Assembly: GCA_963930775.1 (NCBI GenBank)
Contig: OZ005704.1
Location: 4,712,001-4,776,000 of the forward strand
From: Cliona cf. orientalis
Lineage: Eukaryota; Porifera; Demospongiae; Clionaida; Clionaidae
Length of the DNA stretch: 64,000 bases
Direction: 5' to 3'
Made by a program: the position numbers and the translations under genes. The notes under the pieces are model-generated. The model was given only the letters and a program-made list of their open reading frames with translations. It was not told the origin of the DNA and made no database searches. Of this stretch, positions 32,248-61,469 are shown piece by piece. The stretch's first letter is position 1. Each line of letters begins with the position of its first letter.

Positions 32248-35200
32248 ATGAGCCGCCGTAAGTTTCGTCTAACAGCACCAAAAAACTGGGAAAGGAAAAA
32301 GTATGAACAACGTTCTCTTGCTTCGAATGACGTAGACATGCCAGACAGTGGTCCGCTTATGGTGAAAATTCCACGAGAAATTGCTGACACCGCATTGCTC
32401 ACCCTCCAAGTATCACGTACAGGTTTTGATGGATGGACAAGGATGTATGTAACTGTCAATGCTGTCCGATTCTGCAAGTTGGAACACCACGAAGACACCT
32501 CCAGAGTGGTGATGACTCTCGATTTGAAAATGGGGATATGCACATTGCTGGTAGAATGTAAGAATGTGAAGCTTTCACCAGAAAGGGTATCCACACTGGC
32601 AGAATTCACTGAGGTAGTGAAAATGATTGATCGTCACAATATTTGCCAGGGGATTACGGATAAGAAGTTTGCCCCTCTGATCAGCAAACGTGGAGGCACC
32701 TTTGTCGACCCTTATGGTAAGATGTAGTTTTCTGTTTCAAAAAAGTTGATTTTATGCATTTTATGTTGCAGGTAATCGTGTTGCTCACTACGACTCACAG
32801 TACAAAGCTATCCGGCATGATAGATGTCATCTTCTTGTAGACGGAATAATCTGTGAGCAGTGCAAGGTATACAAAAATAATTCCTTGTTAAAGCAATTGA
32901 AACGGATAACATGTAGCGAGGATAAGGAAAACAGAGTTTGCCACCCTCAAAGTCATGCAAATTATAGGTTCCTGACATCTGAAGAAAAGGATGAACGAAT
33001 GAAACTACTACATAGCCAACTTCGCAGCAAAACTCGTATGCTTCAACTGCTGAGACAAAACATAAAAAAAAATTATCAGAGAGAAGCAATCGTCATAGAT
33101 AAGACAACGAGTGACGAATTAGCAGGCATGTTGACGGCTCATGCTACCTCTGTCAAGGAGAAATATGGAGCAGAATCGTTTCCAGGCGTGTTTTGGGAGC
33201 AGCAGCTCTCAGCTGCTTCAAAAAAGAATGCAAGATCTATTAGGTGGCACCCACTCATCATTAAATGGTGTCTCTACCTACATCATAAATCAAGTGGAGC
33301 ATATAATATGTTGCGAGATTCCGGAATACTTAAACTACCTTCAGGTCGCACCCTTCGTGACTATAGACACTTCGCACGAGCCAAAACAGGTTTTTCATAT
33401 GATTACGACAAACAGCTTATCGAGCTTGCACAAAAAACAAAACCAACCTGGCTTTCACAGTATCTCATCCTTTTAATAGATGAGATGTATGTCAAGGAGG
33501 GATTAGTATTCAACAAGTCATCTGGGGCTCTGATAGGCTTTATTGAGCTTGGTGACATAGACGATCACCTACGTAAATACGAGAGTGTCATTCAGGAGTC
33601 GGGTGATGAGCAAAAGCCAAAAGAATTGGCGAAAACAATGGTGGTCATTATGGTACGTGGTGCACTTACCAACGTAGTGTTTCCATATGCTGTTTTTGCT
33701 GGAAAATCGCTGAAGGGCCACAACTTATTTCCGCTGTTTTGGGAAGCCATCGAACGTCTTACACGGCACCAATTTCGAGTTCTTGCAGCCACGTGTGATG
33801 GTGCATCTTGCAACCGAAAACTGTTTCAGATGCACAATCCTAAAGAAAAGCTAGTCTACAAAACAATCAACGTCTACTCACCTGATCGGCATCCAATCTA
33901 TTTCATATCTGACCCTCCTCATCTGATTAAGACACTACGGAACTGCCTGGCAAATGTGAAACGACACTTATGGGTGAGTATACTTTTTGTTGTGTGTGAA
34001 TGATTGAGTATTATATTTGCTCCTCCCACAGTGTCAAGGTAAAGACCTAAGTTGGAGCCATATTGTTGCTTTGTACTTGCGTAATGGTGGTGCTGCTACC
34101 GGGCTCAACTTGATTCCAAAGCTGAAATACGAACACGTGTATCTAACGTCTCATTCAAAGATGCGTGTGGACTTGGCCGCACAGGTATGTACATGTGTAC
34201 TGTACATTTACGTACAGTTACCAACTGTGAGAAAATTCCGAGCTACATGTATCTGTCAGATAACTGTGTACTGTCAATTTAATATTCATCACTCCAGGTC
34301 CTCAGCAGCAGTGTCGCAGAAGCACTGTATCTTACTGGTGGTTCAAGTGCATATGAGACTGCTTTTTTCATCAAGAAAGTTGACCAATTCTTTGACTGCC
34401 TCAATGTTAACTCCTACAATGAGGGCAAACGGAAGAGGAAGCCATTTCTTCAGGTGTATACCAGCAGCAAAGATTTTAGGTTGAAGGTAAGCTATGAGTG
34501 TGCTGATTGTAGTGGTGTGTAGACTAATAATATGCGAGATAAATGTGCATATAGATTCTAATAAATGCTCACCCAATGTGTTGTGTGCACCACATAGTTA
34601 CATACACTCTGAGTTACATATGCATAGTATTATGGTTCTAATAAATGCTCACTGTGTGTGTACACATGTATCTATGTGTATGCGTGCAAGAAGCAACTAG
34701 TGCTAAGGGTGTTTCTGTTTATTAATTTGCAGTTTCTGAGAGATGAGTTTTTGCCCTACCTAAAAGCGTGGGAGGATAGTGTGCACAGCAGGGAAGGATT
34801 TACAGCCAACGAGAAGAAGATGATGATGATTAGCCAAGAGACATTGAATGGCATCAGAATCACTGGTAGGTTGTTAAGCAAGGTTCCATTATACTGTTGT
34901 TACAGACGTCCTGTGTGTGATGCTGCTGATGCACAGAAATGTTAAATATTGTGGTGTACTGGCTTGTGCATATGCATGTGTGTTTGTCATTGCCTAGCAA
35001 CCAAAGTTTCTGTAGGTGAACTACCAATCACAGGATGAGTGTGGATGATCATAGGGTAGCCTGATGATGAAAGGGGTCATGGACAAACGAATCAGTTACA
35101 TGACGTTTATTGGGGTGCACTGTGTGTGTGCATGTGTGTGTATGCATGTACGTGCATGCATGCATGGTATGGACAGAGCATGACATTGTTATATTTTGTA

Positions 35201-37623: not shown

Positions 37624-40600
37624 ATGAGTGCTAATCCTGCCAATTCAGTGCGTCGGCCCTCCGGACACGTACAGGATTCACTTGGAGCGTCCTACAGTGA
37701 TCCTGGATATGCTTTAATGCGACAGCATCGTAAGAGAGCAAACGAGTATCTAGGTAGAGCTCTGGAGATAGATGAAAGCGGACATGGTGAGCATTTAAGT
37801 TTCATTATCTGCCATTGACACTACTGCAAGCGCATCACAATTTAATATTATGTATCAAATGCCTGTGTATGTAGGAGACAAGTCTGCAGCTATTGATTTC
37901 TACTCGAAAGCAGTGACAGAACTGGAGAATGGTGTATCTTGCACAGTAAATCTGAGAGGTCAGTCAGGAATATAACAGATAGTACTTGTCTAGTGAAACC
38001 TTGATTTTCTGGAATCCCTACTACCATGCCGTTTATGGAGAATGGTTTTTAAGTAATAAAATCTCCATGCTTTCTGGTCATCTGCTGCCAATCCCCCAAG
38101 TGTTACATAGTTGCCAAGTGTCCCGTTTTGGCTGGGACAGTCCCGGTTTTGGCCCTATGTCCCGGTTGTGTCCCGGTTTACCTGATATTGCAGCATTGTC
38201 CCGGAATCCAGCTCGATTGCACAAATGGAGGTGTGGCACAAGCATAAACTCAGTATATTATCGAATTTCAGTCCATATATCTCGATATTTAGTGGGTGTG
38301 GCAATACATAATCGGCCGAAAGTGGGTGTGGTCACCGGAAAGTGGGCGTGGTCAATAAAATTTCGCACCCGTTTCGCGCGCATTAATTCTGTATTGTTTG
38401 TTGTCCTGGTCTCTCCTCTCATAAACTTGGCAACTATGGTGTTAGGCCACTCCAAATCAACTAGAGCTCATAGAGCACATACCCCGCGTGCCATGGCAAT
38501 ACCATCCATGGCCATGCCTCTTTTTAGAGGCCTCTATTCTTGGAAGTTTAATCTCTTGCTACTAACAAACTTTTTTGTTTCCTTCTGAAATCCATGATCA
38601 CAAATGACATTAATTTTGTGCTAGAAGCATGCTATAGAGAAGCTTGAGCATGCGCAATATACTTCATAAGGTACTAGGTGGGCGTATCCGATATACTTGC
38701 ACGATTTGTAGCTTCCCTGGGTACTGCCTAAAGCTAAGAACGAGACAGAAGGTGTTCTTTCGCTGTCTTATACCATTTTCAGTGGCGGATCCAGGATTTG
38801 TGATAGGAGGGGGCACGCGCGCGAAAATTTTGCGCCACGCCCCCTAACGCTTGACCACACCCCTTAAATTGCCGCTCAACACTAGTTGACACGTGGTAAA
38901 TGGAAGTGGCTCAGCCATTTGAGCTAAAAAGCACTATGTAAGTTGGTTTATAGATAGTTTTACTCCACAGTTGATAGCCCTAGAATGTGTGCCTCTCTTG
39001 TAGCTACATAGTTTGCATGTGTGGCTCTCCAAAAAGGGGGGGCACGTGCCCCTTGTGCCCCTATGCTGGATCCGCCTATGATTTTATCCCATTTATTGAC
39101 CCTACTTTTGAGATTTGCTGATTTTTATGCCAACAGACAACGGACTACAGACAAACCGATTGCTTTATCCCTTGCTGCGCATGCGCGCATGTGGGGTAAT
39201 TAGTTATTTCTTGATTTCCGCCTGCATGTATTTCCATCAGTACCAGCACAATACCACCTCAATTTGTTTAACTTATGGTTTTGACGACCATTTCCCATCA
39301 AACTTGTGACTAAATGATCATTTCCAGCCACCTGCCCGCATCATATCAGTTTTGGGCTCAGGGGGGAATGAGAAATAATGAATTAATTTGGAGTGGCCTT
39401 ATCAGTTATGCCCTCTGTGTGAGTATATATTTACCCCGTGTGCTTGCGCTTGGGAATCTATCATTATTGTTGTGGGCAAAGTCACGACATCTTGAGATCT
39501 ACATGTATGACCTGAGCGATTTGATAAGCTCACCGACTCCATCAATAATTTGATGAAAAACTGGCTTCTGTATGCTTCGAATTGTTTGGTATGGCACATG
39601 AGTGTCACAAATGGTGTGTTTGTCAGCCACCCTAGCCATGCCTATAGATCGACCATGCTTATATTGCACTGATCAGTGTATAATTGGCCTATTTTTAATA
39701 AGGAAATAATAATATGCATACTTTTGCAGCTCTCATCTCTGTGTAGATTGATGTCCTCTATAGAGATCTTTAGTAATGTGACTTGAGCTTGTCTGAATGG
39801 AATCAAGATGCTTGATAAACGAGGCCAGAGAATCAAGATCAAGATCACATGATGTATTATTGTGAACCAACTCCCGAGGTTTGTATGCAGTATGGAAGCA
39901 CAAATCCCGAGGGCAAAGCAATAAACATATTTTTGGCCCTCAAGAACTGTATGAATGTTTTACCGTGGTCCTCAGGAACTATATAATAGTTAGATAGTAT
40001 CTGCTTAGGAGTTCTATTATACTATTAGGGTTTCTGCAGTTTATAATACATGTATCAAGCTTTAAGGCATATTAAATTTACTAGGATCTAAAACTGTGAG
40101 ACATGCACTGCTTGGTTAGCTTCTATGGGATTTAGAAGACCTCATGCAGGGCTCAGTTAAACTCTCACTTCACTTAGGATTCTATATAGAGCCCTTTGGT
40201 CTTCTGAATCACATAAGGGACTATGTTTTACTTGGCATTGGATCCTAGCCTCATTCAAGTCCTGTACCTAAGCAAAAATGGAGTCTAGATGCAGGCTAAA
40301 CACGGTACATTTGGCTAGTAGATAATAAGGAGAAAATTAAGATAACCATGGAGGATTTGTATGAATAGTGTCATCCACCATGAATATTGATACATCATAC
40401 ATGTAGCTGAAGCTTATCCCTTCACATGTAGCATAGATTCAGATCTGGTTACCTACATGTACATGCTTACCAAATGAGTTACATGTACATATACATTGTA
40501 TGTTCCCTGCCAGTGTGGACTTTTCAACGGTCCATTTTGACCCTAGATATTGAAAAATGCCATGATTATCATCAGATCATCCATTAAATATTTCACTTTG

Positions 40601-43600
40601 GCTGTCTACAGACAAGGTGAAATATTATTTTTTGCAAAATTTATGGTATTCACAGCCTTATCAAGTATCAAAATCAACTGTCCGCGCCCCACACCTTCAC
40701 AGTGTACACTGTACATATAAATCCTTATTGGATGGGAATCAGGATATTTACTTTGAATAAAAGGCCACTCCAAATTAATTCATTATTTCTCATCCCCCTG
40801 AGCCCAAAATTGATGCGGGCGGGCAGCTGGAAATTGTTGCTTAATCACAAGTTTGGTGGGAAATGGTCGTCAAAACCATAAGTTCGGAGGCCCAAAAAAT
40901 GGAAGCGGTATGCTTTTGTATTGTGCTGGTGCTGATGGAAATACCGTACCCTCGCGAAAGAGGGCCCATGGGCGGTGCACCTTACATTGGGCCAAGATTG
41001 GGGGATGGGCCGATATTTGAGTAAACACTAGACCTTAGCAGGAAATTGAGCCCAAAGTGAGGGGTGGGCCGACATTCCATAGTGGGCCCTCTTTCGCGAG
41101 GGTACGGTACATGCGGGTGGAAATCAAGGGGGGATGAGAAACAAGTAATTGATGTGGAGTAGCCTAACTCGTTATTTTGGCCTATATGGCCGTTTACATG
41201 TGATATAGATTTACCACGTACATTGACCCATTGAAATTTGGTACATGCATGGGTATATACTTGTGGACACTTGCCTACAGTAGTTAATTCTTCCAATGCA
41301 AGTCAGTTGCTAATGCACTATCTATATTATACTGTAGGAGAAGAGGCTGCAGCAGTGGAGAGCTTGAGGAAGAAAATGATGACCAACCTTGAAAATGCCA
41401 GAGATAGGGTCAACTTTCTATGTAAGCATTTATTCGCATTCTATATCATCTCACTTTCATATTTGATGACCATTTCCATAATATACATGTATTATGAGGA
41501 AGCTTATAAATTGCACTCCTGGCTCTGTGTGTTCTTAAGTTGCCATTAGTACCAATAAGTTTTCTATTTTTATAGTAAAGGGTGGCAGTTTGGATGGGGA
41601 GTCTAGCTCCACCCATCAGCCACACCTACCCCATCCAATGGAATCGGTGAGACTACCATTTGCTACTCCAAGAGACAAAGTGAGTTTCAGTAGGAATCAT
41701 GCAACATATTATATGAACATGTGTATCCATCTTGATAATAGCATCCTTCACACGCTCCATCTCCCAAGTCCCATCACTCTGATAAAGTTGATAGCACAAA
41801 GGGAGGTGGAGGTGACAGCAAACACTCAAGCTCTAACCTGAAGGGAGTGGATAAAAAGCTCGCTGCAACTATACTAGATGAACTCGTAGAAAGGTATGTT
41901 TATTTTCCCCTTTAGTAGTACTCACTTCCACTCAACTGAGATTTTCTTGTTCAATTGCATGCAGTGATTCCTCAGTGACTACTTGGGATGACATTGGTAA
42001 GTTGCGTGTTGTTCCAGTGTACGATACGATTGAGTGTTCTTTCTATGGGCAGTTGGTCTTGAGTTACCCAAGCGAACTCTCCAGGAAATTGTTATCCTCC
42101 CAGCCCTAAGACCAGAGGTTGGTATGGACTGTGTACATGTAGATTATTTGAATTATGCCTTGACCTAGATTCTTTTTTAATCCAGCTATTTACAGGGCTT
42201 CGGTCTCCTTGCAGAGGACTGCTTCTCTTTGGTCCACCTGGTAATGGAAAAACAATGTTGGTAAGTAGATTCACCATATTATGACATAATATTATAATGT
42301 GATGATGCCAAAAAGATTTTTAAGTTCCTAACCATATTATTTTTTGTCCACTTCAGGCCAAGGCAGTGGCTCATGAATCTCACGCAAAGTTCTTTAACAT
42401 TAGTGCATCATCGCTCACTTCCAAATGGGTAAGTATTCTTGTTCATCTTCAGACTCTAGCTCTCAACAGAAAGGAGCTGGGGACATTGGACTGATTTGTT
42501 GGTCTCCTTGAGACCCAGTAGTCAGTGCCAATGTCTCCAGACCACACGGTGTGAGGTCTGGAGGTCGTATATTATTTATGCAATGCTACTCCCTTAATAG
42601 TGCGTAATACCATACAATTACCCCCCCCCCCCCCCTTCCCTGACTCTGACTGAAAATGCAGATATTAGAACCCATAATAAAAACAGTAGCTAAAGCTTGC
42701 AAGCTAGCCATTTGTGTCATAATATTATATACCTTGCTACTCCCTTAATAGTGCATAATATTATTATTATGTTAGGTTGGTGATGGGGAGAGACTGGTCA
42801 AGGCTCTGTTTGCATTGGCCAGAGAGCTGCAACCATCCATCATATTCCTTGGTAAATTGCACATTATTGAATGCGTAAGGATTGGGGAGAGGGCCAGTAC
42901 TTTGAAATGTTGTTATCCACATTTTACCAACTACAGTATTGTGTATTCTTTTTAGATGAAGTAGATGCGTTGCTGAGTCGCAGGGGAGAGTCAGAACATG
43001 ATGCCATGAGAAGACTAAAGAATGAATTCCTGCAATCATTTGATGGGGTGAGTATATGCGACAATTACAACTAGAGCTCACTAGCACATGCATAGTGTCC
43101 CTGCATTGCATCTGAATAATGTAGCCACAAATTTAATGATTATAGTGGCTGTACAAGAATTACTGACGACCTTTACCCTCTCACAAATTGTGCTCACTTT
43201 ACCCCATTGTGCGTGTTCATGCATTTTTGGAAGGATTTTGTAGTATTGCATGAGCTGTGCATCCTTAAACTTCCAAACATTGTGGTGCTACATGTACATG
43301 TACATGTATAGATGCACACTACTGAGGGAGAAAGGATTTTGGTGATGGCAGCAACAAACAGACCACAAGAGCTCGACGATGCTGCACTAAGGTAAGATGA
43401 TATACATACTCTCATGCCTTGTATTCATAGCGTATAGCGGAAAACTTTCGTAAACATTAAATCTGGGTGAAATGGTTCTCAGTTGGATGTTTGAAACTTT
43501 TAATTTGGTGATCTGAATACTTTTTTAAGGCACCATAGATACGCATGTACCGTAAAATATCCCGTAATTGTGCATCCTCACGCATAAGCCCCCCATCTCT

Positions 43601-48360: not shown

Positions 48361-51300
48361 CTAGTCGTCATCTTCAGATAAGTTCTCTTCATGATCACTG
48401 GTACACGATGTGGTCTCGTCATCAGCTTCATCCTCCAATTGAAGATCAAGGTCATCCTGTAGCTGTTCTACTCCGCTGTCATCAGGCTGATTTCTAGACT
48501 TGGGTAAGTTCTCACAATTAGTGCATCTACATCCAGGCCCACACTTAACACCAGCTTTGAAACAGGAACATCTATTATTACAGCAACCTTTCTTACACCC
48601 ACACCCCCTCAATAACAGATGTACACTTTCTTTCACTTGCTCAAAGTTACTGGGATCATCCCAGTCTATTTCTAGACAGCCATCTACCACCTTCCATCCA
48701 AACTCATTGACATCCAATAGGTGGTATGTATTCCTGTATGCTTGTCCCCAGAAGTGTGATACCCAGCATGAGCGGAGCCAGTGTCGTCGTAGGGCCTCCC
48801 AAGAGGGAGGAAGCTCATCCTCAAACTCAATATTCTCCCATATGGTGGATCTAATGCAGTCAAGCCATTGTTTATGCTGGGAGATGGGATCACTACAACA
48901 GAAGGAATTTAACAAAGCTCTTGGACAGTCATACTTAAATGAACATAGATACTTCTTAAAATATACAGTTCCAATAAGACGAATAAAACTCAAGAATCCT
49001 AATTCACGATTACTATCACACGTGCTAGCTAGTGTACCTTGGGACACATCATTGATAAATGAGGCATGCTGGAAAAATACTTTCAAAAAGGTGGACTTTC
49101 CAAAACCAGCAAAATAGGACACATAATCACAACCTGTACATATGAATAGAGTTTGTAGCACTTTGGGCAGTAGATCTCTTGAAATAGAACTTAAGTCAGG
49201 GTCACCTTCAAGGGATGTAATAAGGCTGTTAAGACTAAGATAGCGATGTTCTTGACTTGAAAACACACTGATACGTACGAATACATCCTGTGATTGATTG
49301 CACATTAATGGTAGTCCAATATGGTATACATCTGTGTCTGGAGAGCACACGAGTTTGCGCGTTCCTGGACTTCTCAGTACATGCAGCCAAACTCTGGTGT
49401 CAGCCTCCTCAGCTCCACAGGACAGGGTAGGGACAGGTTGTACACCCCCAGTTGTTACTTCCCAGGCTTGGTCCTCCTCCACACCACTAAAACACCCAGC
49501 CAAAACAACCTTTTGATGTTCTCTAAGCCTACATGTACCCACTGAAAACTGCTTAAATGACTGACCCAGATACAAAACCAAGGCTCTCTTACACTCCCTA
49601 CAAGCAAGGTAGTCTCTCCACTTAGATGGTACAGGGCATGTATCAGAAAATGTCACATGCTTATGATCAGGGGATAGTGAGGCTGTGTCATCCCTACGCT
49701 TACGTTCGAATGACTTAGGTGTATTAGGCTGTCTACCAGGATTGTCAAATACAACATGCACCTCTTTACACCCATTAGTTAAGTGGTGGAGAACAAACCG
49801 ACGGAGAAGGAACTGTGAATAGTCCTTCATAGTGCTATGTGTGGTCAAAGGGGAGGTGTTGATCATAAACATGCCCTCTAGTACAACAACATCAGGCACC
49901 CACCCACCCAGCAGTTGGTTGCGAACTAGATCTTTGTAGCGGTTTTCAAGCCACTTGGTGGTATAGCTCTTCTGGCCCTTGTGGAGGTTGCCATTAGGAT
50001 CACTGATGGCTCGAGGAAGCTCGATGTACTGTTGACCTACCTGCTGGGAACTAGATCCAAACTTTGCATTCCATGCAAATGCTTTACGGAGGCACTTGCC
50101 CACAAGCTTTTTCTCTTTATCAAGCTGCTTCATTCTCTTCTTTAACTTCCTAGATGAGGCAAAGGTAAGGAGCTTGACTTTCCTCCTTGGTACTACTGCA
50201 GATGGATCTTTTAGGATATAAAACTTGACGTGATTTTCAAACCTTTCCTGCCCTACCTTCCAAAACCCAAGCAAGTCTATTTTTTGCTCTGGAGTGGCAA
50301 CTTGTCCACTCATTGATGTTAGTGGTCTCACTTCAACGACATCTAGAGTGTTTGTCGACTGCACTTTAGTCATCATGCATTTTATGTTTTCTTCTCTCTT
50401 AATAGACTGTTGAGAAACATCAAAGACACTAATTTTGTCATTCTTAGTTCCATCTAGGTCAAGCAAAACAGAATTTTTAACTGCATTCAGTACCAACGAT
50501 CGTACCGGATAATAGTAAAGCATGCGGTCAAGATACTCTTTGCTAGGGCGAACTATTGTTGTCTTTAAGTCCTTGTTCACTAGCATCTCATGTGCTTCAT
50601 CCAGTGCAACAGAACGCATGTGCTTACCAGTGATACTACACACAAACGCACCACTCTCAAGAAATTTCATCACATCACTAGGCATCTTGGCAAGGTCTCT
50701 CAGATGGTTTGGAATAAGCTTTTGGTAATGGGGGCGATCGAATGCCACAAATAAAGGGGCCATACTCTTAATCCCACTCAATCTCAACTTCCATAGTCCA
50801 CTACGCATGGACAAAAACAGAGATAAATAGGACAGCATGTCACGGAATACAAAATTAGCCCAAAATTCCCAAACAGGATCTTTTTCTTGAAGAGCAGATA
50901 CCCAATCAGTGAATTGTTTGTGCACTTCTGAATGGACTTCCCTAGTTCTTTCCAAGTACTCTTTCAATGGGTCATAGCTCTCGTTTTCACCCATTATCTT
51001 ATTACATTCAAGCATATTGGCCTTTGCAGCTGCTACGATGTCTGAAATGGAACTCTCATCATCACTGTCTCTCACACACTTAAATGCTTTAAACATCTGC
51101 CTATACATCGCTTCCCACGCTTGAAGCAGAAACTGATGGGTCCTCTTGTAACTAGAGCACTTTTTGATGGATGTTAATGTTTCCCCTCGATGACCTGAGG
51201 ACTCAGCCAAATCCTTAAGGCCAGCATCAAAATACACTTTCATCAACACTGACTGATAGTTTGAGAGAAGGTGCCAGTCACCAATGAATGGAATGACCCA

Positions 51301-53625
51301 ATCTAGATCAGCACCATACTCTTGCTTTAGCTCACAAATACGGGTATATGTCTTTTGATCACCAACTAGGACTAGATAGTCAGCAGACTCCCCTATCCCA
51401 TACTCCTTGTGCAGTTTAGCCACTACTGCTTCCATGGCCTCAGTTGAGTCAGCATGCAGGTCTACTACAGGCAAATACACCACATTAGAGCACTGTACCT
51501 TTGGAATATTGGGCAGAGTCATGCCACAGAATGTTTTCAGATCAACTAACAGTTTGTCAGGTCCACTGGCTTCCTTCATTAACACATAACTAAACAGAGT
51601 TTCATTCAAATTGTCAACAGCACTCTGCTCAGAGGCAGTAACTTGAAAAGAGCCCAGTTGAACAGTGCTCTGGGCACTACTGGAATTGGATGCCAGGGAA
51701 TGCCTAATACTATCCACTTCCATATCTGAAACATTCTGGCTATGATGTTTCGCTGCCTCGGCAAAGGTACGTGCTCTTTTTGTGTGGGGAGATCTGGTGG
51801 ACCGTAGTGGTGAAGCGATTGGACTGCTACGTTCTTGACGCTTCCGTGAAAGCAGTGAACAAAGCTTCTCAGCAGGTTCTATCTTAACAGCAGGCACATG
51901 TGCACGTTCGCTAGAACTACTTGCAGTGCTTTCACTAGTCGTTGCTTCTCCAGTTGAGCTAAAAAGTCTTCTTGTTGCTGTGTTTTGCTCACGATGGACA
52001 GCTGTATCAGGCATTGGTTGCACAAGCTGAATACTAGTTGCATGCCAACTGCGGTGTTGGTCACCAGAGTACACGGTAGCACTGCTCTGCAGAAAGTCTA
52101 CATTGTCGGTTGACGCAACAGTAAAAGCTTTTTCAACTAACAGGCTCCTAGTACCAGCATTCTTCCGATCTACCGATACAGAGTGGATTATACGTTTTAG
52201 TGTATCCACTGATGAGCAAATACCAAACCTGTTTAAAATAGTTATCAACTCAGTTGAGCCCCCACACGACTCAATGACATCACTGAGTACAGCATGGAAA
52301 GGGGAGTTACACTCACTATTGGTGATGAAGATGATGAGAGAGACAAGGTATGCCTGACGGAGGTGTTTGATATGACCAGAAAATGTACTGTCATTCACAG
52401 ATGCACTACGTCCCTTGCGTTCGTTAACAGACTGAGTAAGTTTACAAACATGTTCCCAAAGCTCAGGAGCAATAGAACGTACAGTAGCAACAAACTTGTC
52501 TACATCAAAGGCTAGCTTCATAGACTGATCTCTCGACTCACTTTTCTGATGGTTCACTAGTTCATGCACTTGATGGTTTAAAAGGTTGGTCTCATAGGCT
52601 TGAAAAGCAGCAGTGCAGCTGCTATTAGCATGGAGGGTATGGGATAACAAAGTACGCATGTCAGCTTTAGTCCTATGAAATATTGTACCAACATTCCTAT
52701 CAACACAAAATGATGTTAACAATTCACCAAACTCATTTCCTAAGAAGGTTAATAACCTACTCTTAGACGTACACACTTCAGAAAAATCAATATCATAGTC
52801 ACTCAAATGCTGCATAAATTGTCTGTACATAGTAGGGAATAGGAAAGGGCGATCAGATGCTGCCAGCTCACATGCATGCAGTGCCGTCTTGTAGAGACAA
52901 CATTCTACAATATCACTAGCTTCTGGCGTTATATACTCAAATTCATGGACTATTTTCTCTAGGTGTTCTTTCTTTGCCTTCAAATTCAAAATTATGTCCT
53001 CACTGGCCAGCATGCATACATCTGACTTGAGCATCTGATTGAAAAACTTGTAACACGGATAACACACTTGATCACCATCTTCAATGCTCTCACTAAATTC
53101 AATGGTATCTTTGAGAAAAGACTCAACTCTCTTAGGATCAGGGCAAGATACGAAAATACACTTCTTGTTCCGGCTTAACACACCACAGGCTTTACATGCA
53201 TCAGACTTACTTGTAGTATTAAGCTTATATACTTGCTGGTAATGCTTTGTGCACAATGAAATGTCCCCTGGGTGGTCAATACTACCTAACCCTAGAGAAC
53301 CACATATCGTCTCCCAGGTAAACTCATGCTTTTCAGCCTTGATGTCAACTGAGTTACAAGAGGGTACACAACACCGTGGCACTCTTTTATCCTTCAACCA
53401 CCTAAGCTGGAAAGGCTCACCATCATCCCTGGCCTTCATTGAATTTCTTATACTTGAACGACATGCTTCACACACACACATATTTTTGTTACCAACATTA
53501 AGTCCTGATTCCTCCTCAAGAAACGCAACCATAGACGGAGACCATCCTTCTGTATGGCGATGTCGCCTTCCACAAAACTCGGAAAAGCAAAAAGAACACT
53601 TCTTTGCTTGGCATTTTCGACTCAT
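48361..53625 (-). CDS. Academ-like transposase with XPG-type nuclease and CXC domain
   Basis: This is a single exon of 1,754 residues with an open frame throughout. Residues 1-210 hold several Cys/His clusters (C5, C10, C13, C18; CCVPSC near 85; CKACG near 145; CYPC near 197) that look like zinc-binding modules. Residues about 540-680 are Ser-rich with a basic TKRAR patch, a likely flexible nuclear-targeting part. Near 775-805 lies VIPFIGDWHLLSNYQ and a following DAGLKDLA helix, conserved-looking and possibly part of the recombinase core. Residues about 1,235-1,510 resemble a FEN1/XPG 5'-nuclease: an LEGMFMINTSP start, VHVVFDNPGR, EEADTRVWLH, SPDTDVYHI and TGCDYVSYFAGFGKSTF. Residues 1,670-1,710 are a CXC domain (CGCKKGCCNNRCSCFKAG). 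The tail is acidic. It presumably mobilises the flanking inverted repeats. Confidence 0.75.
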   Translation of the reverse strand: MSRKCQAKKCSFCFSEFCGRRHRHTEGWSPSMVAFLEEESGLNVGNKNMCVCEACRSSIRNSMKARDDGEPFQLRWLKDKRVPRCCVPSCNSVDIKAEKHEFTWETICGSLGLGSIDHPGDISLCTKHYQQVYKLNTTSKSDACKACGVLSRNKKCIFVSCPDPKRVESFLKDTIEFSESIEDGDQVCYPCYKFFNQMLKSDVCMLASEDIILNLKAKKEHLEKIVHEFEYITPEASDIVECCLYKTALHACELAASDRPFLFPTMYRQFMQHLSDYDIDFSEVCTSKSRLLTFLGNEFGELLTSFCVDRNVGTIFHRTKADMRTLLSHTLHANSSCTAAFQAYETNLLNHQVHELVNHQKSESRDQSMKLAFDVDKFVATVRSIAPELWEHVCKLTQSVNERKGRSASVNDSTFSGHIKHLRQAYLVSLIIFITNSECNSPFHAVLSDVIESCGGSTELITILNRFGICSSVDTLKRIIHSVSVDRKNAGTRSLLVEKAFTVASTDNVDFLQSSATVYSGDQHRSWHATSIQLVQPMPDTAVHREQNTATRRLFSSTGEATTSESTASSSSERAHVPAVKIEPAEKLCSLLSRKRQERSSPIASPLRSTRSPHTKRARTFAEAAKHHSQNVSDMEVDSIRHSLASNSSSAQSTVQLGSFQVTASEQSAVDNLNETLFSYVLMKEASGPDKLLVDLKTFCGMTLPNIPKVQCSNVVYLPVVDLHADSTEAMEAVVAKLHKEYGIGESADYLVLVGDQKTYTRICELKQEYGADLDWVIPFIGDWHLLSNYQSVLMKVYFDAGLKDLAESSGHRGETLTSIKKCSSYKRTHQFLLQAWEAMYRQMFKAFKCVRDSDDESSISDIVAAAKANMLECNKIMGENESYDPLKEYLERTREVHSEVHKQFTDWVSALQEKDPVWEFWANFVFRDMLSYLSLFLSMRSGLWKLRLSGIKSMAPLFVAFDRPHYQKLIPNHLRDLAKMPSDVMKFLESGAFVCSITGKHMRSVALDEAHEMLVNKDLKTTIVRPSKEYLDRMLYYYPVRSLVLNAVKNSVLLDLDGTKNDKISVFDVSQQSIKREENIKCMMTKVQSTNTLDVVEVRPLTSMSGQVATPEQKIDLLGFWKVGQERFENHVKFYILKDPSAVVPRRKVKLLTFASSRKLKKRMKQLDKEKKLVGKCLRKAFAWNAKFGSSSQQVGQQYIELPRAISDPNGNLHKGQKSYTTKWLENRYKDLVRNQLLGGWVPDVVVLEGMFMINTSPLTTHSTMKDYSQFLLRRFVLHHLTNGCKEVHVVFDNPGRQPNTPKSFERKRRDDTASLSPDHKHVTFSDTCPVPSKWRDYLACRECKRALVLYLGQSFKQFSVGTCRLREHQKVVLAGCFSGVEEDQAWEVTTGGVQPVPTLSCGAEEADTRVWLHVLRSPGTRKLVCSPDTDVYHIGLPLMCNQSQDVFVRISVFSSQEHRYLSLNSLITSLEGDPDLSSISRDLLPKVLQTLFICTGCDYVSYFAGFGKSTFLKVFFQHASFINDVSQGTLASTCDSNRELGFLSFIRLIGTVYFKKYLCSFKYDCPRALLNSFCCSDPISQHKQWLDCIRSTIWENIEFEDELPPSWEALRRHWLRSCWVSHFWGQAYRNTYHLLDVNEFGWKVVDGCLEIDWDDPSNFEQVKESVHLLLRGCGCKKGCCNNRCSCFKAGVKCGPGCRCTNCENLPKSRNQPDDSGVEQLQDDLDLQLEDEADDETTSCTSDHEENLSEDDD

Positions 53626-53709
53626 TCTTGCTATCTTTCAGAGAATCCAGAAAATTATCTACAAAACGAGCAGAAAACACCACGTGGCACGCATAGAATT
53701 TTCTGGATT

Positions 53710-54123: not shown

Positions 54124-56706
54124 AGTACAGCTTCCGAACTTCAGATCGATCGTGGGATGACGCGTGCTATAAATAGCGCAAGGCTAGCTTTATTTATCCA
54201 CAGGATTACGTCAGCCAAGAGAACGCGTGAAGTTCGGCCAGCATTACTTGTCGGAGAAAGTAGCGCTCAGCTTTTAATGTATTCGCTGGATATGTATGTA
54301 AGTTAATATATGATTCTGTGGATTTTCAGGTCTCAGAAGTGTTCTGTAAAGGCTCTGAATTTTAGCGCTATGACGACATAGGTTACATCATAATTACAAC
54401 ATAATTACCTAATAACCGCAAAAAAGTAAATTTATACTGGGGATGTAACTATTCCTTAAGCTTGTATATGTGCAGTTTCATGGTAATAATAATATTGTAT
54501 GCAGGACTGGTAGAACTGGTCCAATTGGTCGGACCACTTTTTCTATCATTTGGTTGGATAATCTCTATCGATCGTGTGGTAAAGAACTTGCATGCTCCAT
54601 AATTTTGAACAGATCCATTGAGACCGTTATCCAGACCTAGCATTCTTCACTAAGGTATCAGCATCTTCTGGCCCTAGTGCAAAGATATTTATCCAGGTTT
54701 TTTATGCTCAACTATATACTGATATTCAAGTGAGCCACATAACTGGCCATGCGATCATAGTTCAGTGGCATTAGAAGATATTCTGGAGTAGGGGGCTGGG
54801 AATGGTAATTGAATCAATATAATATTATAGCTGTGGCAGGCACTGCCCACTACAAATTTAAGGGGTATGGGGGCATGCTCCCTCAGGAAAATCTAGATTT
54901 TCACTTCATAGAGTGCTTCTGGTGCATTCTGAGTACGAAATTTTACCTGTAAAAGCCTAACCACACGCAAAATAAATTATAGCAAGGCAGCCATTGCAGA
55001 AGTTCATTTGTACACATTCAAGGCTGTAATAATATTAAGCTGCTATGCATTGTAACATGCCACAGAGAAGGGATAAACTCAGTGTGGTGTAAATCATATT
55101 CGAGTATGCATACTTGTTGATCCAAGTCTTTAGGGTGTCAGGAATACTGGGTAGAGGAATTTCACTGGGAAAGGGAGCCTATTTTGATCAGGGGATCCCT
55201 GGTTCTTTCGCCACTGTACTATCTGTAATGGAATGTACAGCTCATCTGAGTGCCTTCTGCTTCTCTAAATACCAAAAAGAAAAAAGAAATTAGCAGCTGT
55301 AAATTTCCGAATCTTGGATGTCTTGTGAGGCTAAAGTCTGGCTGTTAATACTGGACTCAGAAGCCTATCTCCCACTGGGATGACACCCGGCTTGGGAGGA
55401 ATAAGTTTATAAAACCACATGACTTAAGGGTGCTCACCCGAAGGCACCCTGATCCCCCAAGTACTAACTATATGGTACATCTCTGGATAATAATAAATTT
55501 TCTGTGGCACTTACACTACAATACTAAATGAATGATACTGGCTAACACTCCCCCGAAATTGTTGCTATCTTCCATACACACAAGGTAGCCTAGGCATCTG
55601 CATGTGACCAATGCATCTTGATCTACCAACTCGTGTTACCAAATTTTGTTTATTGTATGCACTTTCACTGTATTTTGTTACCCTAAACTTGTGTATTATT
55701 ATAATATACACTTCTTTATTATTGTCTTAAATCTCAAGAAGTAAACATGATATTGTACATTTTTGGGAACTGTTGTCGTTATCCTTTGACAGATTTATGG
55801 TTTCAGTATAACCCATGATAAATGAAGTGTAAACTACATAATATAATATGTTGATACTTCATGAGCAGCTGTAGTTGTGAATGCAATTAGAGTATATACA
55901 GCAGATTCAAGCACCTTTGCAATACTAAAAACCACAGGTGTAACTAATTTAATAAGCCATATATAGGTAATAATAATAATTATTGTAGGGGAACAGTTTG
56001 TACATGCAGCAACACAACTTAGGGTGGTTTTCAGTGTAGTCCGGCTATTGCAAGGGTGCGCTGAAGCTATTATTACTAGTGTCATGCAGGTACATATATA
56101 TACAGCTGATCATAATTATTAACCCTCACCATAAGCGTAATCAGTGGGATTACTGCAATCTTTGCTGTCCATCCATGTCTCCCTGTGTTCAGGGCAAGGG
56201 GTATTCTAAGAGATAGTATACATTTGTGAATCTTGCATTGAATACCAGTGAACAAATTTGACCATGAAAGTAGCTTACTAGTGGGCTGGTCACTGCAGTG
56301 GTTGTGAACACACCATCACTTGCACTTTGCTGAACAAGCATGCACAGTGAGTGAGATTGAGGCATTTTTCACATGCAATTGATATCATCTATGTTATAAT
56401 AGTCATGGCATGCTATACATGATGCCCAGCAGTGAGGGTTCTGCACGCCTTCAATAAGGCTTAAAAATTATTGATACAAGCCGCAATAAGAACTATGGTG
56501 TTTAACAGTGTCGTATGACTCACTATAATAATCATAATTAGTATAATATTATTATTGTGTTCATCTATAAATACTTAGTCTAGCTAGTATTACTTTTAAT
56601 GTCTATAACCGTGTGGCCTTGATTCATATTATGCAGGTAAAATCAGCAGTGTTCACATAGGAGTCCTCAGTATTGAATAATTATTACAAAATGTTTGTTT
56701 TTGTGC
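54124..56706. other. Intergenic DNA, 3' flank of the spastin duplication
   Basis: The first ~300 bases continue the sequence interrupted by the Academ-like element and have a diverged copy at about 61,880-62,240. Further right, a GGGGGCATGCTCCCTCAG block near 54,868 matches motifs near 6,430 and 45,180. A CTGCACGCCTTCA motif near 56,440 belongs to the CAGAACCCTCACTGC repeat. No exon is supported. Confidence 0.5.
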
Positions 56707-58292
56707 TCAGGCATTGTCACGCTGACAATAAGCTCTCTGTACATGCCTCCAATCTGTTGTGGATAGGCCTCGTCTTTGTCCAATACTTGCAGGTCGAAGA
56801 GTACGGATAGTTGGCCGACCATTAGAACTAAAATCATATGGTCCATAGTGCATGACTGAACCATAGTCATAGGGCAGACTAGTGTCCGCTCTAAGTATTT
56901 TGAAATTATGTCGATGTTCTGTAGTAATAAAACTGGAATCTTAACATTGTCATGACTAAAAATATTATTACCTCGTCTGATATTATTCATGTTTATGATG
57001 ACATAGTTGTCCCTGTCTGGTCGGCTCTGCTCGTGGGCTCTTCCCAGGGCATGAAGAATTTCATGTTGTACAATGCCTCTATCTTCACACCCTCTACCTA
57101 TATTGACAGCTTGCCTTCTACCGATCATTCCCAAGTATGAAAAGCAGCTATTAATGAAAGTGAATAAATTGACGAATAGGGTATGGTTGTGTTGTTTCCT
57201 TACCCACTACTACTTGATGTAAAGTGCACAAAATTTGGATAGTTCATCCAGTTTTGCTGTGTTCTCCTTTCAAATCTGATGCAGCTTCTCGATGCAAACT
57301 CTCTAATGGAATTATGAATGTGACGTAGAGCCACTGAATCTATGGTTAAAGTATACGTGAGTGATAATACGTCAAATCTGCTGGTTAACAACGGTATTAC
57401 ATCATATTGAATCTTCTGAGAAATACAAATATTTTTGTATTATCTGTATAGCAAGGGATTTTCATAAGGAGAAATGTTGTCCTATAATATTATTATTATT
57501 ATTATGGAAGTTTATAATTAGTGGGAATTTTTCATGGATAGTCAGTCTTTATCATTCATTTTTGCTATGGACAGGTAGCTGGGCTTGGTGAAATTTTGAA
57601 ATATTTGGCTCTAATATTTAATATTATGGTATACTCACTCAAGCTAGAGTCCAGCTCATATGGCACAATACCATTTGGCCAAAATCTTACACCTCTATTC
57701 AGAAATCCCTGTGCCTCACTGCCATCACCAACATTGATTATGAGCAGTTTCTCTTGCTCAGGTGTCAGTAGTAGATCTCCATACATGTGTGGATTTTTGG
57801 CTAAACCAGTTACTGCAGAAAGTTACAAACCTCAGTACATACACTTTAATAAGACTATTTCTTTGCTCACTTTCATTGATCTTCTCTTCATTCACTTCTG
57901 GCCCATATGTAGTGTAAAATAGTTAATCTTAGCAGCTATATATTATACTTTCTATGTAAAACATATTTTCAATATCTACAGTACCTTGTTGCTCATAGTA
58001 CGCCATTGGTGCTTCATCTCTATCTTGAACTTGCGAGTTGGCAAATGCATTGATAAGTTTAACAATCACATTCTGATACTCTTGATCACGGAGAGCTACT
58101 GGCCATAGCAAGATTCATGTAATGAGCATGTATGCATAATAAAGCCCAGGCCTAGAGAACGAATTTCTATTATGATCATAGGAGCCTACCTGATCTCTCT
58201 GCGGATGTTTGAGGTAGGAATGGTTTTGCACTTGCATACCAAACACTTCTGGTACCAAGCACCATTAAAGTGGCAAGGACTGCAAACTTCAT
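56707..58292 (-). CDS. Astacin family zinc metalloprotease
   Basis: Six exons (58190-58292, 57985-58098, 57639-57812, 57204-57339, 56972-57147, 56707-56918) join in phase to give 304 residues. The start gives a signal peptide (MKFAVLATLMVLGTRSVWYA). A propeptide of about 90 residues follows. The catalytic domain begins near RGVRFWPNGIVPYELDSSL and carries GCFSYLGMIGRRQ, the zinc site HEILHALGRAHE with its catalytic Glu and three His, RPDRDNYV, the Met-turn SVMHYGPYDFS and the closing IGQRRGLSTTDW and YCQ. Every expected landmark of an active astacin is present. The protein ends right after the protease domain, without CUB, EGF or ShK modules, so it resembles digestive or hatching-type secreted astacins. 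The substrate is unknown. Confidence 0.92.
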
Positions 58293-58412: not shown

Positions 58413-59110
58413 AAACTGAAAGCTATCACATGATCAGTTGCTTAGTAAAATTATGTAGATGGTAGTTAAATACATTTTGTATTCATATTATTATACTGAC
58501 AGCCTGGGTTGTTACCCTAATAGTATAAGCTAAGGGCTTTCCGAGGGATATTACACAATATTAATACTAATGCAGCATAATGCATGGCCTGGTTGTTTGT
58601 TGTATATGTACTTATAGGTACTACATGAATTATAAGTACGTACAGTGCTTCAAGGCAAGAGAGAAATTTTTTTTATTTTGAGTTTTGAGCTTCACAGATA
58701 TCATTTTATCATCTTTCTGCATTAAGTGCATTGAGAGCCCCAAATGGATTTTCAAGTATTTTTTCAAATATCAATTGAGTTTTTGACGCTCTGAAATAAT
58801 ATTTTTTATGTAACCGACAAACCATAATTCCCTTAGCCTTCAAACTTGTGTCCAAGTAACTTCATATTTTGCTGTAATTTCTCGAAATGGAACCGCTCCC
58901 ATAAATATAAATTTCAATACTGTATAAACCAGATTTCATTAAACAGAGCCATGTTTACAAGCATTTAAGCTCAAAATTAAAATTTGCTCTCTTGCCCTCC
59001 CCCACACCCCCCCCCCCCCCCAAAAATCCCGGGGGGCTATGGATAGAGTAGGTAAAGGTCGCCAGGAGTGAAAAGATACTCAGCCATGCGACGATCTTTT
59101 CCAGCTCACC
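58413..59110. other. AT-rich intergenic DNA before ispF
   Basis: No exon is seen. A poly-C run lies near 59,006-59,020. The short GGTAAAGGTCGCCAGG segment at 59,051 resembles the GGTAAAGGTCGTCAAT found after spastin at 46,967, perhaps part of a small repeat. Confidence 0.45.
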
Positions 59111-59588
59111 ATGGCCAAAATGAGGATAGGCAATGGTTATGACATCCATGTATTGGTACCCGACCGTCCATTGGTCCTCGGAGGAGTGAACATCCCCTAC
59201 TCACGAGGTTTGCTCGGCAATACGGACGCTGACGCCCTCATCCACGCCATTATCGATGCAATTTTGGGTGCTCTTTGTCTTGGGGACATAGGACATCACT
59301 TTCCTCCTGACGACTCCAGCGTGAAAGATGCAAGAAGCGTCGATTTACTAAAGCAAGTTTCGAAGATGGTAACTGATAGATCGTGGCGCATCAACAATGT
59401 TGACTCTAGTGATTGCTGAGCAACCTAAACTCCGCCCACACATTCCTGCTATGCGGGATATCATAGCTGAAGCTCTTGATGTGGAAAAGGATTGCGTGAG
59501 CATAAAAGCAAAGACTAATGAGAAGATGGGACCAATAGGAAAAGAAGAGGCCATTGCTGCTCATGCTGTTGTACTATTGGTTCAGTAG
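59111..59588 (+). pseudogene. ispF: Bacterial-type ispF (MECDP synthase), frameshifted
   Basis: IspF closes CDP-methylerythritol phosphate into the cyclodiphosphate in the MEP isoprenoid pathway, which animals lack. The first frame reads [10 protein letters not shown] (metal-binding Asp11 and His13), [31 protein letters not shown] (His45) and [12 protein letters not shown], up to INNVD. It then meets a stop. From 59,397 the next frame continues the same protein: [18 protein letters not shown], then TNEKMGPIGKEEAIAAHAVV with the expected Glu. The total of about 155 residues equals normal IspF length, and there is no intron. Frames differ by a net loss of two bases (modulo three) near 59,400. 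All active-site landmarks remain, so decay is recent or the break is an assembly error. The gene lies 103 bases upstream of the spastin duplicate, arguing against a bacterial contig. Horizontal transfer is the likeliest origin. Confidence 0.85.
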
Positions 59589-60227
59589 TCTTAGTACTAA
59601 GATAGTTTGCTGTACGTTCAACATCACTATACTATTGCGCATGCGCATAATTGCAAGGAGTATTTCTGACCTCGAGCCTGGACCTCAAACATGAGCTCTG
59701 GTTCATATGCTTTGATGCGGCAGTACTACAAGAAAGCTAATGAATATCTTGCCAAGGCGTTGGAGATTGGACAAGGTTAGACGAAATCTGGAATTCTGTG
59801 ATCGGGATTCACCCTCCGATCGATTTTTATGACCGATTTAATATCCATGCAGGTGATAAGGCTACAGCAATTGCGCTATATTCTAAAGCCGTGGTAGAGC
59901 TAAAGAATGGAATTGCATGTTCTTTGAACGTAGAAGGTAAGCATGACTATGGCATGATAAAGATTCTTAGAACGTGAATGGTAGAATTAGACTGCTACCT
60001 TACTACGTATACCTTTGGCCATGGTGTGTGAGGCGTGAAAAATCGCGGAATGCATGCATCCGGTCATACACTCTGGCCCTCTCTAGGAAGCCCAGGGATA
60101 CAGCTACATGTACATGTACATGTGCATCCATGATTTATTTTGGAGTGCAATGCATGATGCCATATAGTGGGAAATTTTCGTGAAAGGCCAATTTAATTTG
60201 TAGTCCATGCAATCATGCCTGTACACT

Positions 60228-61090
60228 CATAGATGATATTCAATGTAGTACTAGAGTAGGGTTGGCATATTTCGGACAGCTAAGAAAAGACAGCGTTATA
60301 TCACAGACAAACGAGCAGCACTAGATCGCGACTATGCAACCACAGATAGGCCCAAACACCACCTACTAAACGAGCCCCTAACCATGCCCCCACCTACTTC
60401 CGTTTGTGCAGGGCGTGCGCACGAAGTACCGCTGGTTCTGGAGGTAGAGAGCGGACAGTGTCGACCATTACCGGACAAAGGTGAAAGAAAATACATAAAA
60501 AATCGCGGCTGCAGTTATCAATATATGACACATAAATGGCATCAAATGCATCACAAACAACATCCTTCTTACATCCTGCCTTTAGATTAAAAGATTAATC
60601 CAAAAATTGTGAAACAATTCATGAATACATTAAGTAATGCAATATATGCATTGTCCAGAAACTACCTCTGAAAGTTCTTTACAAAAAAAATCTGGTTTAT
60701 GCTTACAATAAGGTCAAAAAATTCCGGAAAAAATTCTAAAAATTCTCCATACATTCTAGTATGCACATACCAAATGAAAAAATAATTCATCAAAAATTGA
60801 TGCCGCTGTACCATAGTAATAATATTCATAAATCTTAGCTACCATGAAAAACCAGCTTCTTGAAAAAAATACGAAAAAGTTGCAACAGTTTAGAGCAGCA
60901 TTGTGCAGCTTCTGTGTGGATGCACACCACAAGAATTGAGATATAGGTAGTACTTACATGGCCCCTACCTCATGGCAAATGGTGAACGATTACGTAATAC
61001 CGTTGGCCGTATAAACACAATTATGTGCGAGGCGTCCAGTAACTGCCTCCGTCCGATAATACCCTACCCTACTCTATATCATCTATGGTA
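60228..61090. repeat. Possible inverted-repeat element in the truncated copy's intron 2
   Basis: ATAGATGATAT and AGAGTAGGGT at the left are mirrored by ACCCTACTCT and ATATCATCTAT at the right, about 860 bases apart. The inside has no gene. The match is short and imperfect. Confidence 0.4.
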
Positions 61091-61132
61091 CAATCGTGCT
61101 TATTTCTTGTGTGTAATTTCACAGTTAGTCAT

Positions 61133-61178
61133 CAGGAGCTTATGAGTGCCGCTATGCGACGCTCATAAGCTCCTGATC
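61133..61178. repeat. Short foldback sequence
   Basis: TCAGGAGCTTATGAG and CTCATAAGCTCCTGA face each other across 16 bases, an almost complete hairpin. One arm reappears near 62,830. It may be a minimal MITE. Confidence 0.55.
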
Positions 61179-61469
61179 ATTTATCCATAAAATCTTTGAA
61201 AATTGGACCCCTTTAAAATTTCCTGCTATTAAATTCCATGGGTTGATTTTTAGGCTGGGGATGGGGCCGGGCTGCCACGTCATACAATTACAGCACCAAC
61301 TATGTTGGTTTGTACGTATTTTGGACCTCTGTCTTAACGACTGTATACTCTCTGGCTTACTAGGTGCAGATAACTTGGCTGCAAGGAATCTGAGCAAGAA
61401 GATGGTGATCAATCTTGATAACGCTAGAGACAGGATTGGCTTCCTTTGTAAGTTCATAAAATACTTAAC

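Follow-up and report, generated by a model that had tools for sequence, protein, structure and literature searches.

The window (the whole stretch of DNA analysed, 64,000 nucleotides) corresponds to G000:C16:4,712,001-4,776,000, in an assembly of 216,785,154 bases and 149 contigs. The contig that carries it, C16, measures 7,979,668 bases. An ispF-like gene and its surroundings are given below in window coordinates.

56670..57206, minus strand: astacin protease exon, an animal-type neighbour upstream of ispF.
58654..58996, no strand assigned: MITE-like element, with inverted arms within 58654-58692 and 58967-58996.
59072..59419, plus strand: upstream open frame, IspF as far as Asn-Asn-Val-Asp, with the Zn ligands Asp8, His10 and His42 (E. 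coli numbering).
59105..59114, plus strand: start context CTCACCATGG, which we take to be Kozak-like (A at -3, G at +4).
59111..59588, plus strand: ispF-like gene, a single exon with one internal frameshift, whose two pieces span YgbB profile positions 1-154.
59373..59588, plus strand: downstream open frame, the C-terminal part of IspF, with Pro103, Lys104, Thr133 and the metal ligand Glu135.
59404..59410, plus strand: frameshift site, where reading shifts to the +1 frame; in the relative P0011, two residues are inserted here.
59691..61449, plus strand: spastin-type MIT fragment, with exons 59691-59777, 59852-59938 and 61363-61449.

The upstream frame matches positions 1-96 of the Pfam YgbB/IspF model PF02542 (131.2 bits) and the downstream frame positions 96-154 (69.1 bits), both above the curated cut-off. 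With NCBIfam TIGR00151 (ispF; 2-C-methyl-D-erythritol 2,4-cyclodiphosphate synthase, or MECDP synthase; cut-off, 116.45 bits), the upstream piece scores 122 bits, above the cut-off, and the downstream piece 72.9 bits, below it. Since the pieces abut in the YgbB profile, which continues across them with zero gap, they are parts of one full-length intronless IspF split by a single frameshift, a pattern not expected by chance. The single-exon, full-length-equivalent ispF of the original prediction is thereby confirmed. Among solved structures, the two pieces match 30 and 27 distinct sequences, all of them IspF, IspD/IspF or IspF-scaffold fusions. The two pieces are the sole matches of the YgbB profile in the whole 216.8-Mb genome, i.e. 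the gene is single copy.

The host is a demosponge, perhaps near Haplosclerida, according to COX1, which is found on contigs C111 and C149 with TGA within the frame: in the 120 matches listed, a Demospongiae cluster (Xestospongia muta) at 91% is the closest of those with a name, and the best named cnidarian stands at 87%. The spastin-type fragment begins 102 bases downstream of ispF. Its joined exons match four sequences in the PDB, all spastin; the Pfam MIT model gives 13.8 bits, under the 30-bit cut-off. A search that reached 19 kb past the end of the window detected no AAA part for it. The window also contains, at 37690-43100, a fuller spastin-type gene with MIT exons of its own, a Walker A motif and an AAA exon. 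The MIT exons of the two are 55-63% identical per exon, and the fragment is a divergent copy of the fuller gene. The adjacency of ispF to a spliced spastin fragment was thus borne out. On the other side of ispF, the 58,996 end of the MITE-like repeat is 114 bases upstream, and this right end recurs at no fewer than 39 further sites of the genome; the repeat at 58654..58996 would belong to the MITE class. The location of ispF within an animal chromosome, as originally predicted, is upheld by the demosponge-like COX1, the length of the contig, the spastin-type and astacin neighbours and the same-genome repeat.

A protein search over 5.8 billion proteins returned 7,319 matches, of which 120 were listed; among these, 18 are 68-91% identical to the window protein, and 14 of the 18 are full length. 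These proteins (P0001-P0015, P0018, P0019 and P0035) and the window protein (19 rows in all) are referred to here as the clade. Its monophyly is supported at 100/97 in a tree of 69 rows, whose bootstrap had not converged, and at 100/98 in a tree of 50 rows. The clade is placed beside cyanobacteria, which form one side of a branch supported at 100/99; the named bacteria in the trees are all cyanobacteria, except E. coli, included in the 69-row tree only. The organism names found among the 120 listed matches are likewise cyanobacterial throughout, and none is attached to a clade member. A scan of GTDB (84,980 prokaryote species) confirmed at least 559 loci. The best 80 of these were kept; all are cyanobacteria by title and 59-66% identical to P0002. 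A homology search against bacteria with a phylogeny had been proposed as a check, and both its parts agree with the horizontal transfer that had been suggested. A small group of IspF proteins (P0029, P0040 and P0121) adjoins the clade and has HS or YS at positions 34-35. The AlphaFold2 model of P0002 is a confident one, with a pLDDT of 93.5 and a pTM of 0.91.

Since the entries carry no organism names, the 18 relatives are only by inference assigned to sponges; they would be copies from other sponges. P0001 has a CDDLFxL stretch immediately before its start, and the same stretch is found in the window, which ties P0001 to the same locus.

Residues at positions 34, 35 and 132 (E. coli numbering) were counted in the 18 database members of the clade and in the other 102 proteins among the 120 listed. 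Position 34 is Asn in 17 of the 18 (Ile in P0015) and His in all 102 outside the clade; position 35 is Thr in 18/18 and Ser in 102/102; position 132 is Lys in 18/18 and Thr in 102/102. The window has Asn-Thr at 34-35, and the standard His34-Ser35 loop is not present. In two listings totalling 236 IspF proteins, the pair is HS in 216, NT in 17, IT in one and YS in one (P0121); the one protein left unparsed by the script, P0094, is HS by eye. Among the best 80 of the at least 559 GTDB loci, 79 have HS, one has NS (L011, Lyngbya aestuarii) and none has the Asn-Thr pair. Asp8 and His10 are retained in 15 of the 18 clade rows, i.e. every row that reaches that far; His42, Asp46, Asp56, Thr133 and Glu135 in 18/18; Lys104 in 17/18. 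The Zn ligands Asp8, His10 and His42 and the second-metal ligand Glu135 are all present in the window. The original prediction that all metal-binding and signature motifs are present holds for the metal ligands and fails for the His34-Ser35 loop, replaced by Asn-Thr.

PMC2151065 is the source of these metal-ligand roles (Asp8, His10 and His42 for Zn, Glu135 for the second metal). According to the same text, the amides of His34 and Ser35 and the Ser35 hydroxyl bind the attacking 2-phosphate, the His34 side chain stabilises the flexible loop 61-71 and Thr132 is able to bind the beta-phosphate. Given this role of 34 and 35, the changes of the clade lie on the acceptor side, and the metal and CMP side is mostly kept. 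As Asn34 occurs in the Lyngbya aestuarii locus, Asn34 alone is no proof of a new function; as Thr35 in addition keeps a hydroxyl, the His34-Ser35 pair is not taken to define the IspF family, and its replacement is no proof that activity is lost. Lys132 is also found in the solved structure 5l12 (KAKTNE stretch). Loss of the active site was considered and not concluded, in view of the Thr35 hydroxyl, the Lys132 of a solved enzyme and the Asn34 of Lyngbya. The changes at 34 and 35 are mild, and ordinary IspF activity is possibly compatible with them.

The reading frame of the window copy is not intact: it contains one frameshift and no further stop or shift. An intron in place of the frameshift was rejected, profile positions 1-96 being followed by 96-154 with no coding stretch lost or extra. 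There is likewise no evidence for programmed frameshifting, and 14 full-length relatives manage without it. Of the 160 positions compared across 13 clade members, 65 do not vary, with approximately 668 changes inferred inside the clade, or about 4.3 per column (50-row tree). A simple neutral expectation would be some 26 stops within the clade; this figure is biased because the source database consists of predicted ORFs, in which intact copies are over-represented, and the invariant columns were relied on instead. They suggest that the gene has been retained under selection. The reading frame of P0019 is apparently lost towards the C-terminus, and P0006, P0018 and P0035 begin late and lack the N-terminus; decay may therefore be recurrent across several lineages and the gene dispensable.

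The window keeps all 64 columns that are invariant among the 14 full-length members of the clade, so that the break would be recent, polymorphic or an assembly error. Either the window copy was constrained until lately, as its residues would indicate, or the break is not real; the frameshift of the assembled individual would represent a null allele of recent origin or else an error of assembly. That it is an assembly or consensus error, the sponge having a working gene, is a serious possibility rated somewhat short of even. The 64 intact columns favour it, as do the lack of a second stop or shift and the small number of private residues, three, one of which adjoins the break (a statistical test on these private residues alone is weak, P ~0.21). 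Against it, the frameshift site has no homopolymer, and no copy near 100% identity is present among the 120 matches listed, in which clusters at 90% may conceal one.

The best explanation of the locus is that a cyanobacterium-type ispF was anciently transferred into sponges and kept there as an orphan host gene, the clade being a sponge clade, and this is held to be probable. After an old transfer into the sponge lineage, the gene would have become one of the host's own; the orphan IspF would have been retained under selection without MEP partners, and would be broken by a frameshift in this assembly. Contamination or a chimeric contig is very hard to credit for 478 bases inside an 8.0-Mb contig, flanked at 114 bases upstream by a repeat that recurs across the same genome and at 102 bases downstream by a host-type gene fragment. 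Moreover, even the best 80 of the at least 559 bacterial loci are a mere 59-66% identical to P0002. The relatives could instead come from a lineage of bacterial sponge symbionts, the window then containing one recent and already decaying insertion of its ispF. This would fit with the ordinary presence of IspF in bacteria, the broken state of the window copy and the source of the relatives, which are entries from ENA and 'lgn' that bear no organism names. Such an origin is nevertheless judged improbable: among the best 80 of the at least 559 loci from 84,980 prokaryote species, the highest identity to P0002 is 66% and Asn-Thr is absent; the names among the 120 listed matches are all cyanobacterial and absent from the clade; and P0001 has a short upstream stretch in common with the sponge locus.

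The source of a transferred gene had been proposed to be a bacterial or algal symbiont. The cyanobacterial type of the sequence is well supported; on the choice between alga and cyanobacterium, no named algal sequence occurs among the matches. An ispF derived from an alga, as a plastid-derived nuclear gene, and not directly from a cyanobacterium is rather unlikely. It would account for a cyanobacterial-type sequence on a long stem that adjoins the unplaced group of P0029, P0040 and P0121. Two weak points oppose it: PDB chain 2pmp, presumably from Arabidopsis, is only 20th of the 30 matches to P0002 (139 bits), and no algal name appears among the 120 listed matches for P0029. A viral carrier was also considered and rejected; 76 pattern matches were found in viral contigs and none is a relative.

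IspF catalyses one step of the MEP pathway, by which bacteria and plants make isoprenoids and which is absent from animals. In the host genome, DXS, DXR, IspD, IspE, IspG and IspH gave 0 matches each, by a search that could miss a divergent and finely split gene such as animal ISPD. The same method found HMG-CoA reductase as seven pieces at two places, the pieces on C18 lying in three separate open frames; genes in pieces are thus detectable by it. The host has at least one mevalonate-pathway gene, HMG-CoA reductase. Its two loci are G000:C18:3877244-3878501 (minus strand) and G000:C14:2010794-2012695 (plus strand). Since all six other MEP enzymes went unmatched in the genome, the suggestion that ispF gives the host one working step of a foreign isoprenoid pathway is not supported.

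The enzyme is predicted to be trimeric and Zn-dependent, taking up a CDP-alcohol, releasing CMP and forming a cyclic phosphate. Since no host MEP pathway was found, its substrate would be either another CDP-alcohol, a host metabolite (e.g. CDP-ribitol), or a CDP-methylerythritol compound supplied by symbionts or food. It is proposed very tentatively, as an unlikely reading on present data, that sponges have re-tooled IspF into a Zn-dependent CDP-alcohol cyclase with a changed phosphate-holding loop (Asn34-Thr35-Lys132), which would yield the cyclic phosphate of a sugar alcohol, from host or symbiont, outside MEP. We know of no such reaction on a sugar alcohol outside MEP described from animals.

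The window protein resembles cyanobacterial IspF in its family profile, its Zn ligands Asp8/His10/His42, Glu135 and Pro103/Lys104, and is 56-63% identical to the cyanobacterial-type IspF proteins listed. It differs from cyanobacterial IspF in its location in an animal chromosome where no MEP pathway was found, in Asn34-Thr35-Lys132, in Val at 68 and in the frameshift. A partial parallel is animal CRPPA/ISPD, a member of an MEP-type enzyme family in animals without the MEP pathway, which acts on CDP-ribitol. The window IspF is likewise an MEP-type family enzyme in an animal where the pathway was not found; CRPPA/ISPD belongs, however, to a different enzyme family (PF01128), which was not found in this genome in an exon-wise search.

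Prokaryote-type genes in a sponge genome are already known: PMC4784904 (Conaco 2016) describes bacteria-derived genes in Amphimedon queenslandica, one of them a class II HMG-CoA reductase that acts in the mevalonate pathway. The two HMG-CoA reductase loci found here agree with the two classes in Amphimedon given there. Unlike that bacteria-derived reductase, the product of the window gene belongs to the MEP pathway, and the main text of PMC4784904 gave no match for ispF, cyclodiphosphate or YgbB. Among the open-licence PMC papers listed in literature searches, none was seen to describe ispF in an animal. An orphan, altered IspF in animals would thus be the new element. The MEP pathway is pursued as a drug target because humans lack it, as stated in the abstract of PMC2151065. 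If the proposed history is true, an animal lineage with a lone IspF would directly test the capabilities of IspF outside its pathway and the time over which a cyanobacterial gene can remain useful to an animal. The Asn-Thr signature allows the clade to be easily sought in any sponge genome.

Two further open frames in the window are recorded. The one at 48364-53637 (minus strand; 1758 aa) matches DUF6589, with a Tesmin/TSO1 CXC match below cut-off, and is perhaps derived from a mobile element. The one at 32753-34000 (plus strand) encodes a TNP-like RNase H domain and is perhaps a DNA transposon remnant.
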